A stretch of 64,000 nt of DNA from Acinetobacter sp. ANC 4178 (GTDB taxonomy: Bacteria > Pseudomonadota > Gammaproteobacteria > Pseudomonadales > Moraxellaceae). The DNA lies in contig NZ_SJOD01000003.1 in NCBI RefSeq assembly GCF_004331175.1, positions 186,001 through 250,000 of the forward strand, given 5' to 3'. Position numbers and translations under genes: made by a program. Of the stretch, positions 235 to 47,630 are shown piece by piece (the first letter of the stretch is position 1; the number at the start of each line of letters is the position of its first letter). Below the pieces are notes generated by a model. The model was not told where the DNA came from, did not search any database, and was given only the letters and a program-made list of their open reading frames with translations.

Positions 235-2124
235 ATGAGCGATATGACTTCCCCTACTTCGCAAGTAGCGGCTCTGATTAGCCGAGGCAAAGAGCAAGGT
301 TACTTAACTTATGCTGAGGTTAACGATCATCTCCCAGACTCGATTACTGAAAGCGAACAGATTGAAGACATTATTCAAATGCTTCAAGACGTGGGTATTC
401 CTGTACACGAACGTGCACCTGAATCTGACGATACAATGTTCGAAGACAATGCAGAAGCTGCCGATGAAGTTGCAGAAGAAGAAGCTGCTGCCGTTCTTGC
501 CTCTGTAGAAAACGAACCTGGTCGCACCACAGACCCTGTACGTATGTACATGCGTGAAATGGGTACTGTTGAGCTTTTAACCCGTGAGGGTGAAATTAGC
601 ATTGCGAAACGTATCGAAGAAGGTATTCGCGATGTTCTGCATTCTATTGCCTACTGGCCAAATGCAGTTGAAGTCGTTTTACAAGAATATAATGATTTTC
701 TAGAAGGCGAACGTCGTCTTGCAGATATTTTATCAGGCTATTTAGACCCTGAAACTGATGAAGAGATTCCAGAAGTCTTGGAAGAAGAAGCTGAAGAAAT
801 TGAAGAAATTGCAGACTCTTCAAGCAAGTCAACCAAAGATGTCAAACTTGATGATGAAGATGAAGATGAAGAGTCTGAAAGTGATGATGATTCTGAAGGT
901 GATTCTGGCCCAGACCCTGAAGTTGCGAAAGTACGTTTTTCAGAACTTTCAAATGCGTGGGAACAAACCAAAACCGTAATTGCGAAACATGGTCGTAATA
1001 GCGACGAGGCTAAAGCTGCGCTTGAAGCCCTTGCAACTGTGTTTATGATGTTCAAATTTACTCCGCGTCTATTTGATATCATTTCAGAAATGATTCGTGG
1101 CACTCACGACCAAATTCGTACGTCTGAACGCGAAGTAATGCGCTACGCAGTTCGTCGTGGCCGTATGGATCGTACTCAATTCCGTACATCTTTCCCAGGT
1201 CAAGAATCAAACTTTGCTTGGTTAGATGAACAAATTGCCAAAGCGCCAGCTGAGCATAAAGCGCATTTAGAAAAAGTGCGTCCTGATGTGCTTGCTTTCC
1301 AACAGAAAATTGCCGACATCGAAAAAGAATTGGACTTGAATGTAAAAGACATTAAAGACATTTCTAAACGTATGGCTGTGGGTGAAGCAAAAGCACGTCG
1401 TGCGAAAAAGGAAATGGTTGAAGCCAACCTTCGTTTGGTAATTTCGATTGCGAAAAAATATACCAACCGTGGCTTACAGTTCCTAGACTTAATTCAAGAA
1501 GGTAACATCGGCTTGATGAAGGCAGTTGACAAGTTTGAATACCGTCGTGGTTATAAGTTCTCGACTTATGCAACATGGTGGATTCGTCAGGCGATTACCC
1601 GCTCAATTGCCGACCAAGCACGTACCATTCGTATTCCAGTACACATGATCGAAACCATTAACAAGATCAACCGTGTATCTCGTCAACTTCTTCAAGAAAT
1701 GGGCCGTGAACCTACACCTGAAGAACTCGGCGAACGTTTGGAAATGGACGAGGTTAAAGTTCGTAAAGTCCTCAAAATTGCCAAAGAGCCGATTTCTATG
1801 GAAACGCCAATTGGTGATGATGAAGATTCGCACTTGGGTGACTTCATTGAAGACAGTAACATCACCTCACCAGTTGATGCTGCAACGTCTGAAGGCTTAA
1901 AAGAAGCAACACGTGAAGTGCTTGAAAACTTGACTGAACGTGAAGCCAAAGTCTTGAAAATGCGTTTTGGTATTGATATGCCAACCGATCATACTTTAGA
2001 AGAAGTAGGTAAACAGTTTGATGTAACACGTGAACGTATTCGTCAGATTGAAGCCAAAGCACTTCGTAAGTTACGTCATCCTTCTCGTTCTGAACACTTA
2101 CGTTCATTCCTAGAAAACGACTAA
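235..2124 (+). CDS. rpoD: RNA polymerase primary sigma factor RpoD (sigma-70)
   Basis: The 629-residue protein is the housekeeping sigma factor that directs RNA polymerase to most promoters. Region 1.1 is at the N-terminus. A very acidic, low-complexity stretch (about residues 180-225, runs of E and D) sits in the variable non-conserved region. Region 2 begins near residue 396 ([18 protein letters not shown]) and includes the -10 recognition helix ([17 protein letters not shown]). Region 4 near residues 585-615 carries the helix-turn-helix ([18 protein letters not shown]). The ATG follows a purine-rich AAGAG. Two hairpins follow the stop before the next gene. Length and motifs fit the family fully. 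Confidence 0.99.
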
Positions 2125-2193
2125 TTTGTATAGATACGATGGAGACTTGAAATTTTATCGCTTGTCTCCATTATGTATTTAAGAGCAACACCT

Positions 2194-2217
2194 AACGCCT
2201 GCAGTTTCGCAGGCGTT
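2194..2217 (+). terminator. Hairpin after rpoD
   Basis: Nine-base arms AACGCCTGC and GCAGGCGTT face each other around a short loop, but only three T follow, so this is a weak intrinsic terminator or a processing hairpin. A second inverted repeat (ATGGAGAC and GTCTCCAT) lies just upstream at about 2139-2172. Confidence 0.55.
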
Positions 2218-2240
2218 TGAAATAAGGGGGACTGACGCTC

Positions 2241-2534
2241 ATGACTATGTTAGACCGTACACCATCTCGTGAATTACAAGAACATCTTTGGGTGTTCCCA
2301 ATGGACTACCCGATTAAACTCATAGGTCTTGCTGGCACTGAGTTACATGTTGCTGTAGTTGAAATTTTAGTAAAACATTTCCCTGAGTTTGATGGTAAAT
2401 CGATTCAAGTACAACCATCACGCACGGGTAAATATCATTCTTTAACCGCTCAATTGCGTTTTGAAGAATTAGAACAAGTTCATCAGTTATATGCAGATCT
2501 TGCGGCTTGTCCGTTAATTAAAACTGCACTATAA
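2241..2534 (+). CDS. YbeD-like DUF493 family protein
   Basis: This 97-residue protein fits DUF493 (E. coli YbeD), a small ferredoxin-like fold resembling ACT-type regulatory domains. Visible family features are the start of the fold at FPMDYPIKLIGLAG, then LVKHFPEF and the SRTGKYHSLTAQLRFE strand. No catalytic residues are known. In E. coli ybeD also lies directly before lipB, and that order is kept here, although a strong terminator separates the two genes. A second in-frame ATG at 2247 is an alternative start; an AAGGGGG lies upstream of both. Function is unproven. Confidence 0.9.
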   Translation: MTMLDRTPSRELQEHLWVFPMDYPIKLIGLAGTELHVAVVEILVKHFPEFDGKSIQVQPSRTGKYHSLTAQLRFEELEQVHQLYADLAACPLIKTAL

Positions 2535-2540
2535 GCACTC

Positions 2541-2569
2541 AAAAAAACACGCGAACTGCGTGTTTTTTT
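2541..2569 (+). terminator. Rho-independent terminator after the YbeD-like gene
   Basis: The arms AAAACACGC and GCGTGTTTT enclose a 5-base loop and are followed by a T-run; the A-run on the other side could make it work in both directions. Confidence 0.85.
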
Positions 2570-2667
2570 ATGTCACTTTGAATTCCATTCCAGATATATC
2601 TCCCTATCCTACTCAGCTCGGCTTATAATTTAGCTCACATTCCAATATTGATAAGGATGCTGTCGAC

Positions 2668-3330
2668 GTGACTGATGCTGTACTCAAACCCACTTTAATC
2701 ATTCGTCAATTTACTCAGCTTACCCCTTATGCCGATCGCTTTCAGGACATGAAACAATTGACCGAGCAGCGTGATGCAGAAACACCTGACGAACTGTGGT
2801 TATTACAACATCCCGATGTCTTGACTCAAGGTCAAGCAGGCAAACCAGAACACATTTTAATTCCTTCCAACATTCCTGTGGTACAGACAGATCGGGGCGG
2901 ACAAGTGACATGGCATGGCCCTGGTCAATTGGTGGCTTACTTCATGTTTGATTTAAATCGCCTAGGTTGGAATGTGCGCACACTGGTGTCTTATGCGGAA
3001 AACTTGATGATTGAGTTACTGAATAAGTACGGAATTGAAGCGTATGCCAAACCCGATGCGCCTGGTGTGTATGTAAATGAGCGCAAAATAGGATCTTTAG
3101 GGTTTAAAATTCGTCGTGGACGTAGTTATCACGGACTCGCACTCAATATTAATTGTGATTTAACTGGTTTTCATACCATCAATCCATGTGGCTACGCGGG
3201 TCTAGAAATGGTCCGCATTCATGACTTAATTGAACAAAACCCACCAAGTTTTGAAAACTTATGCGTCGATATCATTGAAACTTTAGAAAACAGCGGGTAC
3301 TTTAATAAAGTTCAAATTGTTCAACAATAA
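2668..3330 (+). CDS. lipB: Octanoyltransferase LipB
   Basis: LipB moves the octanoyl group from octanoyl-ACP to the lipoyl domains of 2-oxoacid dehydrogenases and GcvH, the first step of lipoate assembly in the cytoplasm. The 220 residues include the signature RGGQVTWHGPGQLVAYF, the GSLGFKIRRG segment with the catalytic lysine near residue 146, and NINCDLTGFHTINPCG with the active-site cysteine near residue 174. The start is GTG at 2668, preceded by AAGGA about ten bases upstream; no earlier in-frame ATG fits. lipA is not in the window. Confidence 0.97.
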   Translation: MTDAVLKPTLIIRQFTQLTPYADRFQDMKQLTEQRDAETPDELWLLQHPDVLTQGQAGKPEHILIPSNIPVVQTDRGGQVTWHGPGQLVAYFMFDLNRLGWNVRTLVSYAENLMIELLNKYGIEAYAKPDAPGVYVNERKIGSLGFKIRRGRSYHGLALNINCDLTGFHTINPCGYAGLEMVRIHDLIEQNPPSFENLCVDIIETLENSGYFNKVQIVQQ

Positions 3331-3411
3331 GCACTTTACTTTATACAGTGAAATAAATTAGAGTATTTACTCTAAATAAAATAAAAGACTCTTAAACTAA
3401 GGGATAAGCAA

Positions 3412-3945
3412 GTGATTTTAAACAAATCAGTAAAACCTGCTTTACAGCTCGGCTATGTCAAACTCATGATGGATGTGATTGGCAGAGGATTGGTTATGGC
3501 AAGTCAGGTGGATGATGAAGTTAAGCAGGAAGTTGCAAAATTTCCTGCAAATTTCGTATTGTCCATGAAGGTATTCCCGCATGGTCCTGCTTTTATTGCC
3601 AAAGTCACCGATAATCATGAATTGATATTATTGAATGAAACCGAGCAAAAACCAGACCTCACCATTACATTCAAACATCTCAGTCATGCCTTTTTAGTCT
3701 TTTCTTTTCAGGAAAGTACAGCCCAAGCATTTGCCAATGACCGAATGATTGCCGATGGTGATTTATCTTATGCCATTCGTTTAGTTCGTTGCTTGAATAA
3801 AATGGAAGCGTTGATTTTACCGAAATTACTGGCTGAACTTGCAGTCAAACAATACCCACACGAACTAAGCCTAAAAGAAAAGCTTACAGGCGCAGCCAAT
3901 ATTTATCTTAAAGTGGCTCAATCATATTTCAAACGGAGTGCATAA
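3412..3945 (+). CDS. SCP2-like sterol/lipid-binding domain protein
   Basis: A 177-residue protein resembling the SCP2 lipid-carrier domain. Its core (about residues 45-125) shows the alternating strand pattern FVLSMKVF, AFIAKVTDN, LILLNE, LTITFKHL, then helices ending in KMEALILPKLLAELAVKQYP, a tail I associate with these bacterial proteins. The start is GTG at 3412 with AAGGGA upstream. The stop TAA is one base before the ATG of the iron alcohol dehydrogenase, so the two are translationally coupled and probably act on related hydrophobic alcohols or aldehydes; that link is inference. No signal peptide is seen. Confidence 0.75.
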   Translation: MILNKSVKPALQLGYVKLMMDVIGRGLVMASQVDDEVKQEVAKFPANFVLSMKVFPHGPAFIAKVTDNHELILLNETEQKPDLTITFKHLSHAFLVFSFQESTAQAFANDRMIADGDLSYAIRLVRCLNKMEALILPKLLAELAVKQYPHELSLKEKLTGAANIYLKVAQSYFKRSA

Positions 3946-3946
3946 C

Positions 3947-5131
3947 ATGGCAAAGCCTTATTATGAATTTTTTTGCCCAGTTAAAGTTATTGCAGGTAAT
4001 GCCGCGTTAGAGCATATTCCTTTTGAACTTGCGACTTTAGGTGCCAAACGCCCTATGATCATTACCGACAAAGGTGTACGTGGTAACCAATTATTAGCAC
4101 CCATTGAAGCTGCCTTTGAATCAACCGACGCCGTGATTGGCTGTATTTTTGATGATGTTCCACCTGATTCAAGCCTAGATACTGTTCGTCAAGCTGCTGC
4201 CTTATATCGTGAAAACCAATGTGATGCGATTATTGCCGTTGGTGGTGGTTCAGTGATTGATACATCTAAAGCTACCAATATTTTAGTCAGTGAAGGCGGT
4301 GATGATTTACTGCAATATTCAGGCGCACACAACTTACCTAAGCCTTTAAAACCTTTCTTTGTGATTCCAACCACATCAGGTACAGGCTCTGAAGTGACTA
4401 TGGTTGCTGTTGTATCAGACAAGACCAAGAATGTAAAAATGGCTTTTGCTTCATACTATCTAATGCCACATGCTGCAATTCTTGATCCGCGTATGACCCT
4501 TACTTTGCCGCCACATCTCACCGCGATGACTGCGATGGATGCACTGACACATGCTGTTGAAGCCTACACTTGCATGGCCGCCAACCCAATCAGTGATGCC
4601 TATGCAACGGCTGCAATCAAAAAAATCTGCAGCAACTTGTTTAATGTTTTAGATAACCCAAACGATTCACAAGGTCGTTTAGAATTGGCGCAAGCATCGA
4701 CTATGGCTGGTATTGCCTTCTCTAATTCTATGGTTGGTCTGGTTCATTCTTTAGGACATGCACTCGGTGCTGTGGCTCACCTCCCCCACGGTCTATGCAT
4801 GAATTTATTCTTGCCTTATGTATTGGAATACAACAAAGAAGTGAATGGTGACAAAATCGCAGATCTATTACTTCCTCTTGCAGGAGCCGATATTTATGCA
4901 CAAACCCCAGCACATTTACGTGCAGGTAAAGCCATCACGACCATTCAAGCGATGCGTGACCGTTTGTTCAGCCTAACTAAACTACCAAGAACGCTTCAAG
5001 AAACAGGTAAAGTTACCGAGGCTCAACTAGATGAAGTGGCTGAAAAAGCCTTAAATGATGGTTCCATCATCTATAATCCGAAAGAAGCATCCTTTGAAGA
5101 CTTAAGATCAATTCTTCAAAAAGCATGGTAA
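3947..5131 (+). CDS. Iron-containing alcohol dehydrogenase
   Basis: A 394-residue group III alcohol dehydrogenase, oxidising alcohols or reducing aldehydes with NAD(P). The nucleotide-binding loop is IIAVGGGSVIDTSK (about residues 88-101). The metal site is visible as DALTHAVEAY and, further on, HSLGHALGAVAHLPHG, giving the usual Asp and three His ligands. ATG 3947 is chosen over GTG 3938 because GGAG at 3935-3938 is correctly spaced for the ATG and the GTG lies inside it. It follows the SCP2-like gene by one base. The substrate cannot be told from sequence. Confidence 0.93.
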   Translation: MAKPYYEFFCPVKVIAGNAALEHIPFELATLGAKRPMIITDKGVRGNQLLAPIEAAFESTDAVIGCIFDDVPPDSSLDTVRQAAALYRENQCDAIIAVGGGSVIDTSKATNILVSEGGDDLLQYSGAHNLPKPLKPFFVIPTTSGTGSEVTMVAVVSDKTKNVKMAFASYYLMPHAAILDPRMTLTLPPHLTAMTAMDALTHAVEAYTCMAANPISDAYATAAIKKICSNLFNVLDNPNDSQGRLELAQASTMAGIAFSNSMVGLVHSLGHALGAVAHLPHGLCMNLFLPYVLEYNKEVNGDKIADLLLPLAGADIYAQTPAHLRAGKAITTIQAMRDRLFSLTKLPRTLQETGKVTEAQLDEVAEKALNDGSIIYNPKEASFEDLRSILQKAW

Positions 5132-5144
5132 AAATGCAATAAAT

Positions 5145-5178
5145 AAAAAAGCCTGATGTTCCAACATCAGGCTTTTTT
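5145..5178 (+). terminator. Rho-independent terminator after the alcohol dehydrogenase
   Basis: The arms AAAAAAGCCTGATGTT and AACATCAGGCTTTTTT form a long stem with a very short loop and a U-tract. Confidence 0.93.
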
Positions 5179-5305
5179 ATAAATGACACATTAGTCATTT
5201 ATTTTTTACCTATTTGGCAGAGAATTTGCTAAAAAATTCTACAAAAATACTGACAAGTGACATCAATTTAGGATAGATTGGCGCACTTTATTTTATTCGT
5301 AGGGG

Positions 5306-20388: not shown

Positions 20389-20994
20389 ATGCCGTACTTG
20401 TTGCTTATTATTGGTTGTTTTTTGTTATTTTTCAGTGTTTTGATTTTAAACACTCCCACTCTGCTTTCATTCGATTTGGCTATTGTCGAATGGGCAAGTC
20501 ATCATCGTACTGAAAATTTGAATCAAATAACAACGCTACTATCAGCAATTGGGGGCATGCCAGCTGTACTTTTTTTTACCACTTTATGGAGTTTCTACCT
20601 AACTTGGTATAAAAAATACACATACATATTACTGATTTGTTTAGGACTAATTGGAAGCGGAGCCTTTGCTTGGCTACTTAAATACTGGATTGCAAGACCA
20701 CGCCCACCTGAAATCTTTCATTTGGTTCAGAGTTATGGTGCTTCTTTTCCAAGTGCGCATAGTGTTTATGCTGCTGCATTAAGTGGTCTGGTTATTTATT
20801 TATACCGTGGACACTCCAAATACTCATATATTTGTTGTTTTGCAGTTATATGGTTCATTTTAATGGGGTGCTCAAGAGTGTATTTGGGTGTACATTTTCC
20901 TTCTGATGTTCTTGCAGGTTGGGGCATAAGTTTTATTTGGATTACCCTGCTATATATAGTGTTACAACACACTATGAAGCAAAAAATAATTTAA
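20389..20994 (+). CDS. PAP2-family membrane phosphatase
   Basis: A 201-residue lipid phosphatase of the PAP2 superfamily with about six membrane segments. The three active-site motifs are complete: K-(6)-RP in KYWIARPRPPE, PSAHS, and SRVYLGVHFPSDVLAGW. Likely substrates are phosphatidate, phosphatidylglycerol phosphate or undecaprenyl diphosphate; the sequence does not decide. GAGG stands before the ATG. It lies 32 bases before adeI and behind a shared operator-covered promoter, so it appears to be the first gene of the efflux operon. Confidence 0.92.
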   Translation: MPYLLLIIGCFLLFFSVLILNTPTLLSFDLAIVEWASHHRTENLNQITTLLSAIGGMPAVLFFTTLWSFYLTWYKKYTYILLICLGLIGSGAFAWLLKYWIARPRPPEIFHLVQSYGASFPSAHSVYAAALSGLVIYLYRGHSKYSYICCFAVIWFILMGCSRVYLGVHFPSDVLAGWGISFIWITLLYIVLQHTMKQKII

Positions 20995-42795: not shown

Positions 42796-42823
42796 TTTAA
42801 GCTTCAATTAAGTCCGATTTAAG
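42796..42823 (+). promoter_or_regulatory. Three phased PmrA half-sites upstream of the PAP2 gene
   Basis: TTTAAG (42796-42801), ATTAAG (42807-42812) and TTTAAG (42818-42823) are each separated by five bases, so two overlapping copies of the PmrA box HTTAAD-N5-HTTAAD are present. TATATT and TTAAAT downstream are -10 candidates. The site starts 74 bases before the ATG. Confidence 0.75.
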
Positions 42824-42869
42824 TTTATATTGGTTAAATCAAAATAATTAAAATATCGTTTGTGTAACC

Positions 42870-43613
42870 ATGCCTGAATTACAACGCTTTAGCTTAAAAC
42901 AAGGATTGATTCTGCTGTGCTGTTTTATTCTTTTACAGTTCTGGTTCCCTGTTGGTGGAAAACTCGACCTTATGCTCATACAGCCATGGACGGGTATACA
43001 TGGTCAATTTCCATGGCGCTATGACTGGTTCTTGGAAAAACTGAATCATAAATATGTCAAAAACCTTTTAATCCTCTGTGATGTGAGCTTTCTTGCTCTT
43101 TGGCTTGCCAGCTTTAAAATCAAACGTTTACATGCGCAGCGTTGGCAATATGCCTATCTATTTGGATTACTCATCCTCAGTACCAGTGTTGTTGGCATAC
43201 TGAAATCACAATCGGGACATGCATGCCCATGGAATATGACAGAAGCCACAGCAACAGGCTTTCTCTGGAATTTCAACCTCAGTCATGGTCACTGTTTCCC
43301 AGGTGGTCATGCCGCCACAGGTTTTGCCTTAATGACAGGATTTTTTGCCTTTAGACAAACAGCACCCAAACGTGCTTATTTTTATCTGATTGCAGGCTTG
43401 ATTTTAGGTTTTGGTATGGGCTGGGCTCAAATGATGCGTGGTGCTCATTTCCTCAGTCACAATTTGTGGACAGCATGGGTCATTTGGTGCTGTAACGTTG
43501 CACTTTATCCATTATTTTATAAACGATTGACATCATCTCAAACTGTAGAGTCAGCGCAACCTTCTGCTTCTATTCAACAGCCTGCAACGGCAAACACTGA
43601 AGAAGCAGCTTAA
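42870..43613 (+). CDS. PAP2-like membrane phosphatase, probable PmrA regulon member
   Basis: A 247-residue integral membrane protein with about six helices. PAP2 motifs are present in a variant form: KSQSGHACPW (motif 1, with Cys where Arg is usual), FPGGHAATGF (motif 2, PGGH for PSGH) and RGAHFLSHNLWTAWVIW (motif 3 with Arg and His). The tail (from about residue 222) is polar and A/Q/E-rich. With PmrA boxes upstream and pmrCAB next to it, a phosphatase acting on lipid A, or one recycling lipids after phosphoethanolamine transfer, is plausible but unproven. No clear ribosome binding site is seen. Confidence 0.88.
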   Translation: MPELQRFSLKQGLILLCCFILLQFWFPVGGKLDLMLIQPWTGIHGQFPWRYDWFLEKLNHKYVKNLLILCDVSFLALWLASFKIKRLHAQRWQYAYLFGLLILSTSVVGILKSQSGHACPWNMTEATATGFLWNFNLSHGHCFPGGHAATGFALMTGFFAFRQTAPKRAYFYLIAGLILGFGMGWAQMMRGAHFLSHNLWTAWVIWCCNVALYPLFYKRLTSSQTVESAQPSASIQQPATANTEEAA

Positions 43614-43849: not shown

Positions 43850-45199
43850 TTAGAGGGATGGTTGATCTGACTTCACCTGTTTAGGAAACTGTACTTGTAC
43901 AAATAAGCCTCCTAAAGTTTGACTCTTGCCAAACTGGATTTTTCCACCTAAATGTTCGGCAGCCTTTTGTACAATCGAAAGACCTAAACCACTTCCCATC
44001 TCTAAATGATGATGAATGCGATAAAAACGTTTCATAATCTGTTCATGTAAAGCAGGATCAATGCCGGGACCACTGTCTTCAACCTGAATAATGGCCTCAT
44101 TTCCTTGAGAAAAAATCGAGACATTAATCACGCCATTTTTAGGTGTGTATTTAATTGCATTATCAATCAGATTATAAATTATTGAGCGTGCAGCAGATTC
44201 TAAACCATTGACCAATACTTCCTCTTGGTGCTCCATCCCCAAATCAATATCTTTATGCAAAGCCACATGAATCAATTGTTCCACACAGTTTACTGCCACT
44301 TGGTTTAAGTAAAATGGCTGTTGTTGCATGGTGTGTAGGCTACTTGCATCTTGCTTGGCTAAATCGAGTAACTGGCTAATTAAATGCTGAATACGAATTA
44401 AACCTTGGCTTAAATTTTCTAATGCTAGGTTTCCTGGAAACTCACGCAATAGAATTTGCATCTGTAAATTCAGCGCGGTAATGGGTGTTCTGAGCTCATG
44501 TGCGGCATCTGCAATAAACTGACGCTGTTCTTGTTGTGCCAACTCAATGCGTTCAAATAAATGATTCATCTCTTGAATCGTGGGTATTAACTCCACTGGA
44601 TAGCGATTCAGCTTAATAGGCGTAAGTTCATCCAGACCACGGCGGGCAATTTCTTGTCTAAACTCATCCATTGGCCTTAAGCTTCGTAAAATGACCCAGC
44701 CTAAACCCCATAAAATAAACGGGATCATGACGAGATACGGCACGAACATACTGGCTGCCAACTCCAACGCTAAATGACTTCTTGCAGAAAGAGGCTGACT
44801 GACCTGAATTTGATAATGTTCTGTTGGTAATACATACATACGCCACACCCCTTGCGTGGTGGAGCGGTCATAAAAACCTGCCTGATCTACATTATGTAAT
44901 AACAAATTGAACTGATGTTGGGGTTGTTCCTTTTTTTTCCAGACATCAATAAACAAATCTTCTTCATGATAGCGTTTATGAATATCAAAATGACTTTTGA
45001 TAGGCGCGGGATCATGTGCGACGATCCGTTCCGCAAGGTTCTGCATTTGAGCATCAAGAATTTCATCCAGTTCACCCAATGAAATCCAGTATGCCGTTGC
45101 AATTAACACGCAGCCTAACAGTAAACTAAACCCCGAAACAAAGATCAGTAATCTTTTCTTTAAAGATGTTTGTGTTGACATTGCGTGCAGTTGCTGCAT
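43850..45199 (-). CDS. pmrB: Sensor histidine kinase PmrB
   Basis: A 449-residue inner-membrane kinase that phosphorylates PmrA in response to envelope signals. Two membrane helices (LLIFVSGFSLLLGCVLIATAYW and ELAASMFVPYLVMIPFILWGLGWVIL) flank a periplasmic domain (about residues 45-145, with HKRYHEEDLFIDVW as in A. baumannii PmrB). A HAMP-like linker, the H-box (FIADAAHELRTPITALNLQ), N-box (NLIDNAIKYTP) and G-box (GSGLGLSIV) follow. It is six bases after pmrA. GTG/ATG choice: ATG 45199 has AGGG upstream. In A. baumannii, changes here cause colistin resistance; I cannot judge variants without a reference. Confidence 0.96.
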   Translation of the reverse strand: MQQLHAMSTQTSLKKRLLIFVSGFSLLLGCVLIATAYWISLGELDEILDAQMQNLAERIVAHDPAPIKSHFDIHKRYHEEDLFIDVWKKKEQPQHQFNLLLHNVDQAGFYDRSTTQGVWRMYVLPTEHYQIQVSQPLSARSHLALELAASMFVPYLVMIPFILWGLGWVILRSLRPMDEFRQEIARRGLDELTPIKLNRYPVELIPTIQEMNHLFERIELAQQEQRQFIADAAHELRTPITALNLQMQILLREFPGNLALENLSQGLIRIQHLISQLLDLAKQDASSLHTMQQQPFYLNQVAVNCVEQLIHVALHKDIDLGMEHQEEVLVNGLESAARSIIYNLIDNAIKYTPKNGVINVSIFSQGNEAIIQVEDSGPGIDPALHEQIMKRFYRIHHHLEMGSGLGLSIVQKAAEHLGGKIQFGKSQTLGGLFVQVQFPKQVKSDQPSL

Positions 45200-45205
45200 A
45201 AAACC

Positions 45206-45883
45206 CTAATCCAATTTGCCTAAACGATAACCCATACCACGAATTGTGCGGATAAAATCCTTACCCAACTTTGCACGCAAGTGATGGACATACACTTCAA
45301 TAGTGTTGCTATTCACTTCACTATCGAAGTCATACAGCTTATCTTCTAAATTGGCTTTGGAAAAAATCTTATTCGGATAACTGACCAGTGGCACCAGAAT
45401 TGCCCATTCACGATTGGAAAGCTCCAACTCCAATCCATTCAGTAAAGCAATATGTTGCTCTACATCTAATACAAGATCACCATAACGAAGTACCAACGTT
45501 TCACTTGCTGGTACTTCGTGGTTAGTGCGACGTAATAAGGCTTGAATGCGTGCTAAAAGCTCCACAAACTCATAGGGCTTAACCAGATAATCATCTGCGC
45601 CCTGATTCAAACCATCTACCCGATTCTGCACCTGATCCCGTGCAGAAATAATCAAAATGGGTAAACTCGGAAAACTTTGACGGATTTTTGCCAACACCTG
45701 CATACCATCCATCATCGGCAAGCCTAAATCTAATAGCACGACATCAAAACTTTGCTGCTGTAGAAGCTTTAACGCATCTAAGCCATTATTCACCCATTCC
45801 ACTTGATAATCATGCAATTGCAACAATGTCTTGCTGGATTCTGCAATCATGAAGTCATCTTCGATCATTAAGATTGTGGTCAT
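45206..45883 (-). CDS. pmrA: Response regulator PmrA
   Basis: A 225-residue OmpR-type regulator. The receiver has the acidic pair (MIEDDF), the phospho-accepting Asp in VVLLDLGLPMMDG near residue 52, and the conserved Lys in DYLVKPYEF. The C-terminal winged helix (about 130-225) ends in VNSNTIEVYVHHLRAKLGKDFIRTIRGMGYRLG. Phosphorylated PmrA would bind the boxes at 47614-47630 and, by inference, 42796-42823. Middle gene of pmrCAB. Confidence 0.97.
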   Translation of the reverse strand: MTTILMIEDDFMIAESSKTLLQLHDYQVEWVNNGLDALKLLQQQSFDVVLLDLGLPMMDGMQVLAKIRQSFPSLPILIISARDQVQNRVDGLNQGADDYLVKPYEFVELLARIQALLRRTNHEVPASETLVLRYGDLVLDVEQHIALLNGLELELSNREWAILVPLVSYPNKIFSKANLEDKLYDFDSEVNSNTIEVYVHHLRAKLGKDFIRTIRGMGYRLGKLD

Positions 45884-45898
45884 TCTGCTTGTCCCGGC

Positions 45899-47566
45899 TT
45901 ATGCCTTTCCATCTGGATTGGTTGCACATTGTTTTAACATATCATTTTTATCATCAATCACTTGGGTTTTAATTTCAAGCATCGACAATAAGGTTGGGAA
46001 TAAATTATCCTGACTACGAAGAGCTTGTTTTTGCTGCTGTAAACAACTGACTTCAGTTGCATTATGCTGTTGCCATGCAGGTGAGAACCACATGATCATT
46101 GGCACATGAGTTTGCTGAATTGGAGCAATTGCATATGGTGCACCATGCAAATACATACCGCTTTCACCCGTAGACTCACCATGATCGGATAAATACCAGA
46201 ATCCAGTTTGATAATTTGGCACATCTTTGATGGTCTGAATGACCTGATTTAAAACATGATCTGTATACACAATGGAGTTGTCATAACTATTCAACAATTC
46301 ATCTCGGCTACAACCTTGAATGGCATTGGTTGAACACATTGGCTTAAAGGGTTGGAACTGCTCCGTAGAACGTTTGTAATAAGCTGGACCATGACTTCCC
46401 ATCTGATGTAACACGATGAGTTGTGGTGTCTTATCTTCGGCTGGAATGCTCGCCAAATATGACTTCAAGCTATCCACTAAGACCTCATCCTTACACTCAC
46501 CTTCAGCATCACACCATTTTTGTTTTAATGGTGCTGGAATTTCAAACTTATGCACACGGTCACAAGTACCTTTACACCCTGAGTTATTATCAATCCACGT
46601 CACCTTATAGCCTGCACGCTGTGCAATATCGAGTAAACCTTCACGGTGACTTGCCAATCGCTCATCATAATCCTTACGCGGCATTCCAGAGAACATACAT
46701 GGCACTGACACTGCTGTTGCTGTACCACAAGAGCTAACTTGTGCAAAACTAATCACATTCTGCTTAGACAATTCTGGATTGGTATTTTTGGTATAGCCAT
46801 TCAAAGAAAAACTCTCAGCACGTGCTGTTTCACCAACCACCAATACCATTAATTTTGGTTGTGTTGGCTTACTGGTATTAATAACTCGATGTGCATCAGT
46901 CCCATAAGTCACTAAGGGTAAATTTTCTTTTGGCGCTTTCTTTTTATAATACGATATAAACGATGCAATCATGTTTTGTGGCGAAATCATCCCTTTCAAA
47001 TCTCGGTTTCCACGAAAAATGGCTGCAAAATCAACGTAAAATACAAATAATAGACTACAAACAATTGCAATAGAAACAACTGAAGCAATGCCTTTCTTCA
47101 CGATTTGACGCAGAATAGGCTCTGGTTTGAATTTAACCATTAAAATGGCAATGATCGGTAAAACCGTCATTCCCAAAGTCCACACCACTAAATGCCATGA
47201 CCATGTATCCTTTGCTTCAGAAATATCTGTCTGCATCAAATTCTGGATCTGATCTGGAGTAATTAAAACACCCAAACTGCTCACCGCATAAGATGCAAAG
47301 CCCCCAATAAATACCAATGCAATTGCAATCGGTTTGGCTGTCCATTTCCAGTTCAAAATTTGAAAAAGGAATGTATATGCAGCAACCAACACACCAACTG
47401 AAGCAGCAATGAATAAACTAGACTTTATGCCTGTATGTGGGGTAAGCGATTGCATTCGCTCATAAAATGGCACATTTAAAACAGCGGCTAACCATATTGC
47501 CAGCAATAGGTTAAACGTGAGTAAAGACATCGATTTTATTTTAAATTTCTGTAGTAACATAACCAT
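45899..47566 (-). CDS. pmrC: Lipid A phosphoethanolamine transferase PmrC (EptA family)
   Basis: A 555-residue inner-membrane enzyme that adds phosphoethanolamine from phosphatidylethanolamine to lipid A, lowering polymyxin binding. Five N-terminal membrane helices fill residues 1-200. The periplasmic sulfatase-like domain has the nucleophile Thr in VVGETARAESFSLNGYTKNTNPEL and metal ligands in WYLSDHGESTGESGMYLHGAPYAIAP, with paired cysteines (CGTATAVSVPC, CKGTC). The start is uncertain among ATG 47566, ATG 47560 and TTG 47575; none has a strong ribosome binding site. First gene of pmrCAB. Confidence 0.96.
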   Translation of the reverse strand: MVMLLQKFKIKSMSLLTFNLLLAIWLAAVLNVPFYERMQSLTPHTGIKSSLFIAASVGVLVAAYTFLFQILNWKWTAKPIAIALVFIGGFASYAVSSLGVLITPDQIQNLMQTDISEAKDTWSWHLVVWTLGMTVLPIIAILMVKFKPEPILRQIVKKGIASVVSIAIVCSLLFVFYVDFAAIFRGNRDLKGMISPQNMIASFISYYKKKAPKENLPLVTYGTDAHRVINTSKPTQPKLMVLVVGETARAESFSLNGYTKNTNPELSKQNVISFAQVSSCGTATAVSVPCMFSGMPRKDYDERLASHREGLLDIAQRAGYKVTWIDNNSGCKGTCDRVHKFEIPAPLKQKWCDAEGECKDEVLVDSLKSYLASIPAEDKTPQLIVLHQMGSHGPAYYKRSTEQFQPFKPMCSTNAIQGCSRDELLNSYDNSIVYTDHVLNQVIQTIKDVPNYQTGFWYLSDHGESTGESGMYLHGAPYAIAPIQQTHVPMIMWFSPAWQQHNATEVSCLQQQKQALRSQDNLFPTLLSMLEIKTQVIDDKNDMLKQCATNPDGKA

Positions 47567-47613
47567 CACAATCAAAAAGAAAAATCCTAGCTTTGCTAAG
47601 ATATAAATTAAAA

Positions 47614-47630
47614 CTTAAACCTGACTTAAA
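47614..47630 (-). promoter_or_regulatory. PmrA box upstream of pmrCAB
   Basis: Reading leftward, TTTAAG-N5-TTTAAG is an exact match to the PmrA consensus HTTAAD-N5-HTTAAD. A -10 candidate TATATC lies at 47600-47605, eight bases downstream. The box sits between the pmrC start and the porin terminator. Confidence 0.82.

Follow-up and report, generated by a model that had tools for sequence, protein, structure and literature searches.

A conserved predicted PmrA box precedes a PAP2 gene beside pmrCAB in Acinetobacter

In this work, we analysed a 64,000-nucleotide stretch of the genome of Acinetobacter sp. ANC 4178 (the window) and find that a gene for a PAP2 superfamily membrane protein, convergent with pmrB, pmrA and pmrC, is preceded by a candidate PmrA box that is conserved in most of the relatives compared. 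Sequence comparison makes it very probable, at roughly 0.85, that this gene is under PmrA control, and PAP2 is probably switched on together with PmrC, which armours the outer membrane. For the role of the PAP2 gene carried along with mcr-1, Acinetobacter provides a native chromosomal setting. There, the transferase, a diacylglycerol kinase (DgkA) and PAP2 appear to share one regulator, so that the role becomes testable by simple gene removals. The elements and genes of the locus are as follows.

42796 to 42801, plus strand: additional half-site TTTAAG, distal to the pair that follows and phased with it at 11 bases; such triads are seen at 9 of the 80 loci, and four of the five nearest (L093, L094, L095 and L097) are among them.
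42807 to 42823, plus strand: conserved PmrA box (predicted), the proximal pair ATTAAG-TCCGA-TTTAAG; the corresponding pair is present in 65 of 80 loci in strict form and in 70 of 80 in the published form.
42834 to 42839, plus strand: predicted -10 hexamer TTAAAT, 10 bases after the box; a -10-like pattern has the same offset in 52 of 65 loci.
42870 to 43613, plus strand: PAP2 superfamily membrane protein of 247 amino acids, Cys119/Cys142/His197 subfamily (Pfam PF01569, 52 bits, cut-off 27.2).
43850 to 45199, minus strand: pmrB, sensor histidine kinase, from family matches (below the NCBIfam PmrB cut-off) and synteny.
45206 to 45883, minus strand: pmrA, OmpR/PhoB-type response regulator; the best NCBIfam match is PmrA at 200.5 bits, below its cut-off of 330.
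45899 to 47575, minus strand: pmrC (eptA), lipid A phosphoethanolamine transferase (NF028537, 667.8 bits, cut-off 500).
47614 to 47630, minus strand: PmrA box of pmrC, TTTAAGTCAGGTTTAAG; 74 of 75 loci have a pair before pmrC.

The element reads TTTAAG-CTTCA-ATTAAG-TCCGA-TTTAAG on the plus strand (42796-42823), with a gap of 46 bases to the PAP2 ATG at 42870. The initial annotation had described three half-sites with 5-base spacing upstream of a PAP2 gene next to pmrCAB, and this description is borne out by the sequence and by the layout, in which pmrC, pmrA and pmrB adjoin PAP2 and run from 43850 to 47575 on the minus strand, converging with it. The triple pattern, HTTAAD-N5-HTTAAD-N5-HTTAAD, has a single match in the window, and none of 100 dinucleotide shuffles contains it. 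It is found in two places in the 3.39 Mb genome, the second of which lacks the terminal G in two of its three half-sites. The loose HTTAAD pair is found five times in the window (1.87 expected), a number that 2 of 100 shuffles reach. Genome-wide, the HTTAAG pair has 13 matches and its backwards control 15, so a motif match in a single genome is weak evidence and we dropped such counts as an argument. The weight of evidence for the predicted box comes from its conservation, not from the motif match alone.

We evaluated conservation in 80 named loci, selected as the best of the 204 that were confirmed, a set that leans to close relatives (loci L033-L092 belong to the BLAST database and enter no count). 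Pairs were sought up to 120 bases before the start of the transcription unit, which is the dgkA start where PAP2 follows dgkA. The strict form, HTTAAG-N5-HTTAAG, precedes the PAP2 transcription unit in 65 of the 80 loci (mean 0.05 and maximum 1 in 200 dinucleotide shuffles) and the published HTTAAD form does so in 70 (mean 1.55, maximum 5, likewise in 200 dinucleotide shuffles), while the reversed upstream sequences of the same 80 loci yield one strict and two published-form matches. When any first base and a final G or T are allowed, 78 loci have a pair, all but those of A. baylyi and A. soli.

The strict pair also precedes pmrC in 74 of 75 loci, and none of the control genes (HAD 0/28, Amt 0/63, OprD 0/37 and pmrA 0/78), in each case within 150 bases and equally within 120. 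These controls are imperfect in that pmrC coding sequence makes up most of the region before pmrA, and HAD, on the other strand, shares the intergenic region of PAP2. The loose published form is its own reverse complement and appears within 150 bases of 20 of 28 HAD, 12 of 37 OprD, 2 of 63 Amt and 1 of 78 pmrA genes (16, 10, 2 and 1 within 120 bases), and only the strict form separates PAP2 and pmrC cleanly from the controls.

The PAP2 pairs comprise 39 distinct 17-mers with 36 distinct spacers; thus, the sites persist while the DNA between the half-sites changes. Their first base lies 59 to 76 bases ahead of the start codon. In 52 of the 65 loci, a -10-like pattern follows the pair at an offset of exactly 10 bases, compared to at most nine loci at any other offset from 2 to 29. 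This hexamer played no part in the selection of loci; the information content of the half-sites was set aside, because the loci had been selected by the same motif. Since the -10 pattern lies 10 bases downstream of the pair, the box would overlap the -35 region, as is expected for OmpR/PhoB-type activators. The commonness of the pair genome-wide could suggest that an AT-rich intergenic stretch produced the three half-sites by chance, but the probability of this is practically nil: we rejected a chance origin of the box on 65 of 80 loci against a shuffle mean of 0.05, and its fixed position, the linked -10 and the conservation across diverged spacers speak against it as well.

What is conserved is two half-sites. 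The initial annotation had treated all three as a unit, and we rejected the triad as the conserved unit given its presence in just nine loci; the third half-site is a local extra, which may add binding strength in this clade. That annotation had also proposed checking for the half-sites in relatives that keep the gene, and for the most part they are conserved there: the published pair is present in 70 of the 80 loci and absent in 10, though eight of these keep a one- or two-base variant. One of them, labelled A. baumannii (L164), has a GTTAAG variant.

PmrA, PmrB and PmrC are all encoded beside PAP2 in 76 of the 80 loci. The four without the full set are L164, whose contig ends about 0.8 kb past PAP2, A. 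gerneri (L150; G126), where about 50 kb of the contig separate PAP2 from pmrC and pmrB and PAP2 still has a triad, A. baylyi (L125) and A. soli (L147). The last two keep PAP2 and pmrAB, and have no similar pair and no pmrC at the locus. In both species, the box has decayed, and a more distant pmrC homologue is encoded elsewhere, close to another PmrB-like gene. Changes in the DNA-binding domain of PmrA were considered as an explanation for this loss and discarded, as 79 PmrA sequences, those of A. baylyi and A. soli among them, have this domain strongly conserved.

Direct repeats in 11-base phase are general to the OmpR family, and the box could therefore serve another regulator of that family, such as PhoB, its adjacency to pmrCAB being incidental. 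In favour of this, A1S_2749, annotated as PAP2, was lowered by mucin along with phosphate-uptake genes, according to the available text of PMC5757984, so another regulator may act on it. We infer that A1S_2749 is the orthologue of the PAP2 gene of the window from its number next to A1S_2750-2752, although papers number pmrA and pmrB differently. Against it, the half-site of PAP2 is that of pmrC, found at 74 of 75 loci, this half-site matches the PmrA sequence tested by electrophoretic mobility shift assay (EMSA; PMC10927774), and the only two loci without any such pair, those of A. baylyi and A. soli, are the ones with pmrAB and no pmrC. We consider control by such another regulator very improbable.

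Control by PmrA is further consistent with what is reported for A. baumannii, where PmrA binds TTTAAG-N5-TTTAAG at pmrC and naxD in EMSA and mutation abolishes binding (PMC10927774), the pmrC site being TTTAAG-TCATT-TTTAAG (PMC9431647). An A. baumannii record (L289) contains this published pmrC site, and carries TTTAAG-AGCAA-TTTAAG, TTTAAGAGCAATTTAAG, upstream of PAP2. Within the available text of the open-access literature searched, PAP2 is not named as a PmrA target and no expression or binding test of this promoter appears. Seven transcripts are commonly over-expressed in colistin-resistant A. baumannii, pmrC and diacylglycerol kinase among them and PAP2 not (PMC6330354), and the words PAP2 and phosphatase are absent from the main text of that paper as available.

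Under PmrA control, the element would be an activated promoter of the OmpR/PhoB type, at which the phosphorylated regulator would bind the direct repeat at 42807-42823 over the -35 region and raise PAP2 expression together with pmrC; dgkA would be raised by PmrA too, through a box of its own. The regulation together with pmrC that the initial annotation proposed is thus strongly supported by comparison (the strict pair in 65 and the published form in 70 of the 80 loci, a fixed -10 spacing and a dgkA that is often alike), while its unit of three half-sites did not stand and the PAP2 motifs that it pointed out mark a wider subfamily.

PAP2 and the transferase also go together at the genome level. 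Among 149 genomes of the genus, 119 have both PAP2 and PmrC, none has PAP2 alone, 12 have PmrC alone and 18 have neither (PmrC homologues at E 1e-80 or better, paralogues included). The p value of this co-occurrence overstates its strength, given the shared ancestry of the genomes and the possibility that neighbouring genes disappear in one event. Outside the genus, a search of 193 genomes of the order besides that of the window found 29 PAP2 homologues in 28 genomes, with an EptA-like gene within about 1.5 kb of 17 of them and dgkA within that distance of seven. Nine distant Acinetobacter genomes (G020, G026, G040, G050, G075, G094, G098, G115 and G148) have PAP2, 37-41% identical, in a same-strand tandem with a pmrC homologue, probably an operon.

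Similar gene groups are found on plasmids. A block of dgkA, pap2, pmrB, pmrA and pmrC lies at 3213-8045 of L288 (NZ_CP104652.1), a 185 kb A. variabilis plasmid from a human wound that is typed as mobilizable and has an ISAba11 transposase near the block, and A. cumulans plasmid p1_060092 (L169) has PAP2 with pmrBAC. In a record filed as a P. aeruginosa plasmid (L287, CP137941.1), positions 1834-5277 encode a PAP2 of the Cys119/Cys142/His197 subfamily together with a two-component system, an LTA synthase-family protein and a dual-specificity phosphatase, and a Tn3 transposase adjoins this group.

The link extends to dgkA. A dgkA-pap2 tandem is present in 12 of the 80 loci (among them A. lwoffii, A. 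schindleri, A. indicus, A. variabilis and A. towneri), with dgkA recognised from protein reading, and the pair precedes dgkA in 10 of these 12 in strict form and 11 in the published form. Pfam PF01219 identifies dgkA immediately before PAP2 in further genomes with the same arrangement, and a plasmid record has the annotation diacylglycerol kinase. Where dgkA stands apart, the published pair lies at -80 to -45 in 31 of 61 loci, compared to 1 of 61 for reversed sequences, and is absent at the other 30; the dgkA sample consisted of 70 loci, the 30 best-scoring plus 40 picked, from 127 genomes with a match. In the organism of the window, dgkA is on another contig (G000:C1:725437-725742; L216), and the PmrA-like pair TTTAAGCCCACTTTAAT precedes its start by 62 bases. 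DgkA is not strictly required, as seven of the 119 genomes with PAP2 are without a DgkA match.

The canonical catalytic set of PAP2 enzymes consists of Lys and Arg in motif 1, Ser-Gly-His in motif 2, and Arg, His and Asp in motif 3. The protein of the window keeps Lys112, His147 and His193 and has Cys119, Gly145, Gln187 and His197 in place of Arg, Ser, Arg and Asp; with four catalytic positions replaced, it falls in a divergent PAP2 subfamily with putative activity. Motif 1 is K-S-Q-S-G-H-A-C-P, with Cys for Arg, and motif 2 is PGGH, both as first read in the initial annotation. That annotation concluded from them that the chemistry may differ; they turn out to be common to a PAP2 subfamily whose members are often linked to phosphoethanolamine transferases. 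Of the 29 order-level homologues, all compared with no motif filter, 27 have Cys/Cys/His at positions 119, 142 and 197, the other two having Arg/Ser/Asp. The Cys/Cys/His signature is found in hPAP2 beside mcr-1 and in the plasmid-collection proteins of A. baumannii, A. variabilis and P. aeruginosa. We accordingly dropped the motif-1 Cys as a peculiarity of this protein.

The predicted structure has a pLDDT of 88.9 and, among 828 aligned chains, resembles best B. subtilis PgpB (5jki; Z 12.7, rmsd 4.3, 188 aligned) and then Aquifex LpxE (Z 10.7, rmsd 3.9 over 155 residues). Ranks 1-33 are all PAP2-type phosphatases and relatives, with the top Z just under the level at which the tool warns for helical proteins. 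Foldseek with this model returned no match at E 0.001 or better, and a sequence search of solved structures none at E 1 or better. The structural matches of the model fit the PAP2 superfamily and do not tell the substrate. At the family level, the scores lie below the cut-offs of NCBIfam NF028538 (PAP2 family lipid A phosphatase, PAP2_lipid_A; 50.8 bits, cut-off 275), NF028536 (PAP2_near_MCR1; 48.5, cut-off 475) and NF045633 (LpxF; 24.5, cut-off 400). The three other PAP2 genes of the genome have no published pair, in the upstream stretch for two of them and in the whole 3.3 kb locus for the third (L303), and two (L300 and L301) have canonical motifs. A second PAP2 gene in the window, at 20389-20994 on the plus strand, has canonical motifs (RP, PSAH, SR...H...D) and no PmrA pair upstream.

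PAP2 is likely a partner of the PmrC phosphoethanolamine transferase reaction, an accessory enzyme presumably acting at the periplasmic face of the inner membrane. In that reaction, PmrC takes phosphoethanolamine from phosphatidylethanolamine and leaves diacylglycerol, which DgkA converts to phosphatidic acid. Our first guess, held tentatively and at slightly under even odds, is that PAP2 handles a lipid phosphate in this diacylglycerol/phosphatidic acid cycle. Such by-product handling gains some support from the link between dgkA and PAP2.

Alternatively, PAP2 could be a lipid A phosphatase, whose removal of a phosphate alters surface charge or opens a position for phosphoethanolamine, as in the Helicobacter LpxE/EptA pair. 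We regard this as possible though on balance unlikely: the weak similarity to PAP2_lipid_A and LpxF and the second rank of Aquifex LpxE point to it, as does the naming of the mcr-1 neighbour as a PAP2 family lipid A phosphatase (PMC10285318), but the two family scores are far under their curated cut-offs, the structural similarity spans the whole PAP2 superfamily, and the literature on mcr-1-linked PAP2, in its available text, offers no biochemical proof of such activity.

A distinctly doubtful third role is that of an undecaprenyl pyrophosphate (UPP) phosphatase keeping the lipid carrier supplied during envelope modification. E. coli ybjG, for a PAP2-type UPP phosphatase, is indeed upregulated by PmrAB, but hPAP2, with the same Cys/Cys/His signature, did not raise bacitracin resistance (both from the available text of PMC7559476), and the two other PAP2 proteins of the genome with canonical motifs would suit the task better.

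As a speculation with only a small chance of being right, the transferase-linked Cys119/Cys142/His197 subfamily could be a periplasmic lipid phosphotransferase, rather than a plain phosphatase, serving PmrC, EptA or MCR, for instance by placing phosphate onto the diacylglycerol that the transferase leaves behind or onto lipid A. Its two Cys would form a redox-sensitive bond in the active site (a Cys119-Cys142 disulfide being a guess), and the same set of transferase, DgkA and PAP2 would have been recruited twice, by PmrA in Acinetobacter and by ColR in Pseudomonas.

Returning to PAP2 as a likely partner of PmrC, comparable pairings of PAP2 or DgkA are already known from E. coli ybjG, the P. 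putida ColR regulon and mcr-1-hpap2. A further close system is the Acinetobacter PmrA regulon (pmrCAB and naxD), as the PAP2 box has the half-site and 5-base spacing of pmrC. In E. coli, too, PmrA controls a PAP2-type phosphatase; YbjG differs, however, in being a UPP phosphatase, and all three E. coli PAP2 enzymes retain the His-Asp-His triad (PMC7559476, available text), whereas here His197 takes the place of Asp. The ColR regulon of P. putida is alike in that one response regulator activates an adjoining PAP2 gene, PP0900, which is divergent from colR, as well as the DgkA gene PP1636 (PMC2689224, as far as its text is available), but has another regulator with another binding site, the ColR consensus. 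At one locus (L258), a response regulator is divergent from a Cys/Cys/His PAP2, an arrangement like that of colR and PP0900, and this regulator is presumably ColR.

In the cassettes mcr-1-hpap2 and mcr-3-dgkA, PAP2 or DgkA accompanies a phosphoethanolamine transferase as it does here, and co-expression slightly raised colistin resistance (PMC7559476, available text). According to the same source, hPAP2 is without the Asp of the triad. Its motifs 1 and 2 each have a Cys and its motif 3 has His for Asp, as in the PAP2 of the window, to which it is about 33% identical over 59% of the query. The PAP2 of the window differs from the cassettes in being chromosomal and beside its own two-component regulator. 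A published contrast places eptA beside regulators and mcr beside pap2 or dgkA, with one gene having both (PMC10285318, in its available text); Acinetobacter qualifies this contrast, with pmrA, pmrB, pmrC and PAP2 together in 76 of 80 loci.
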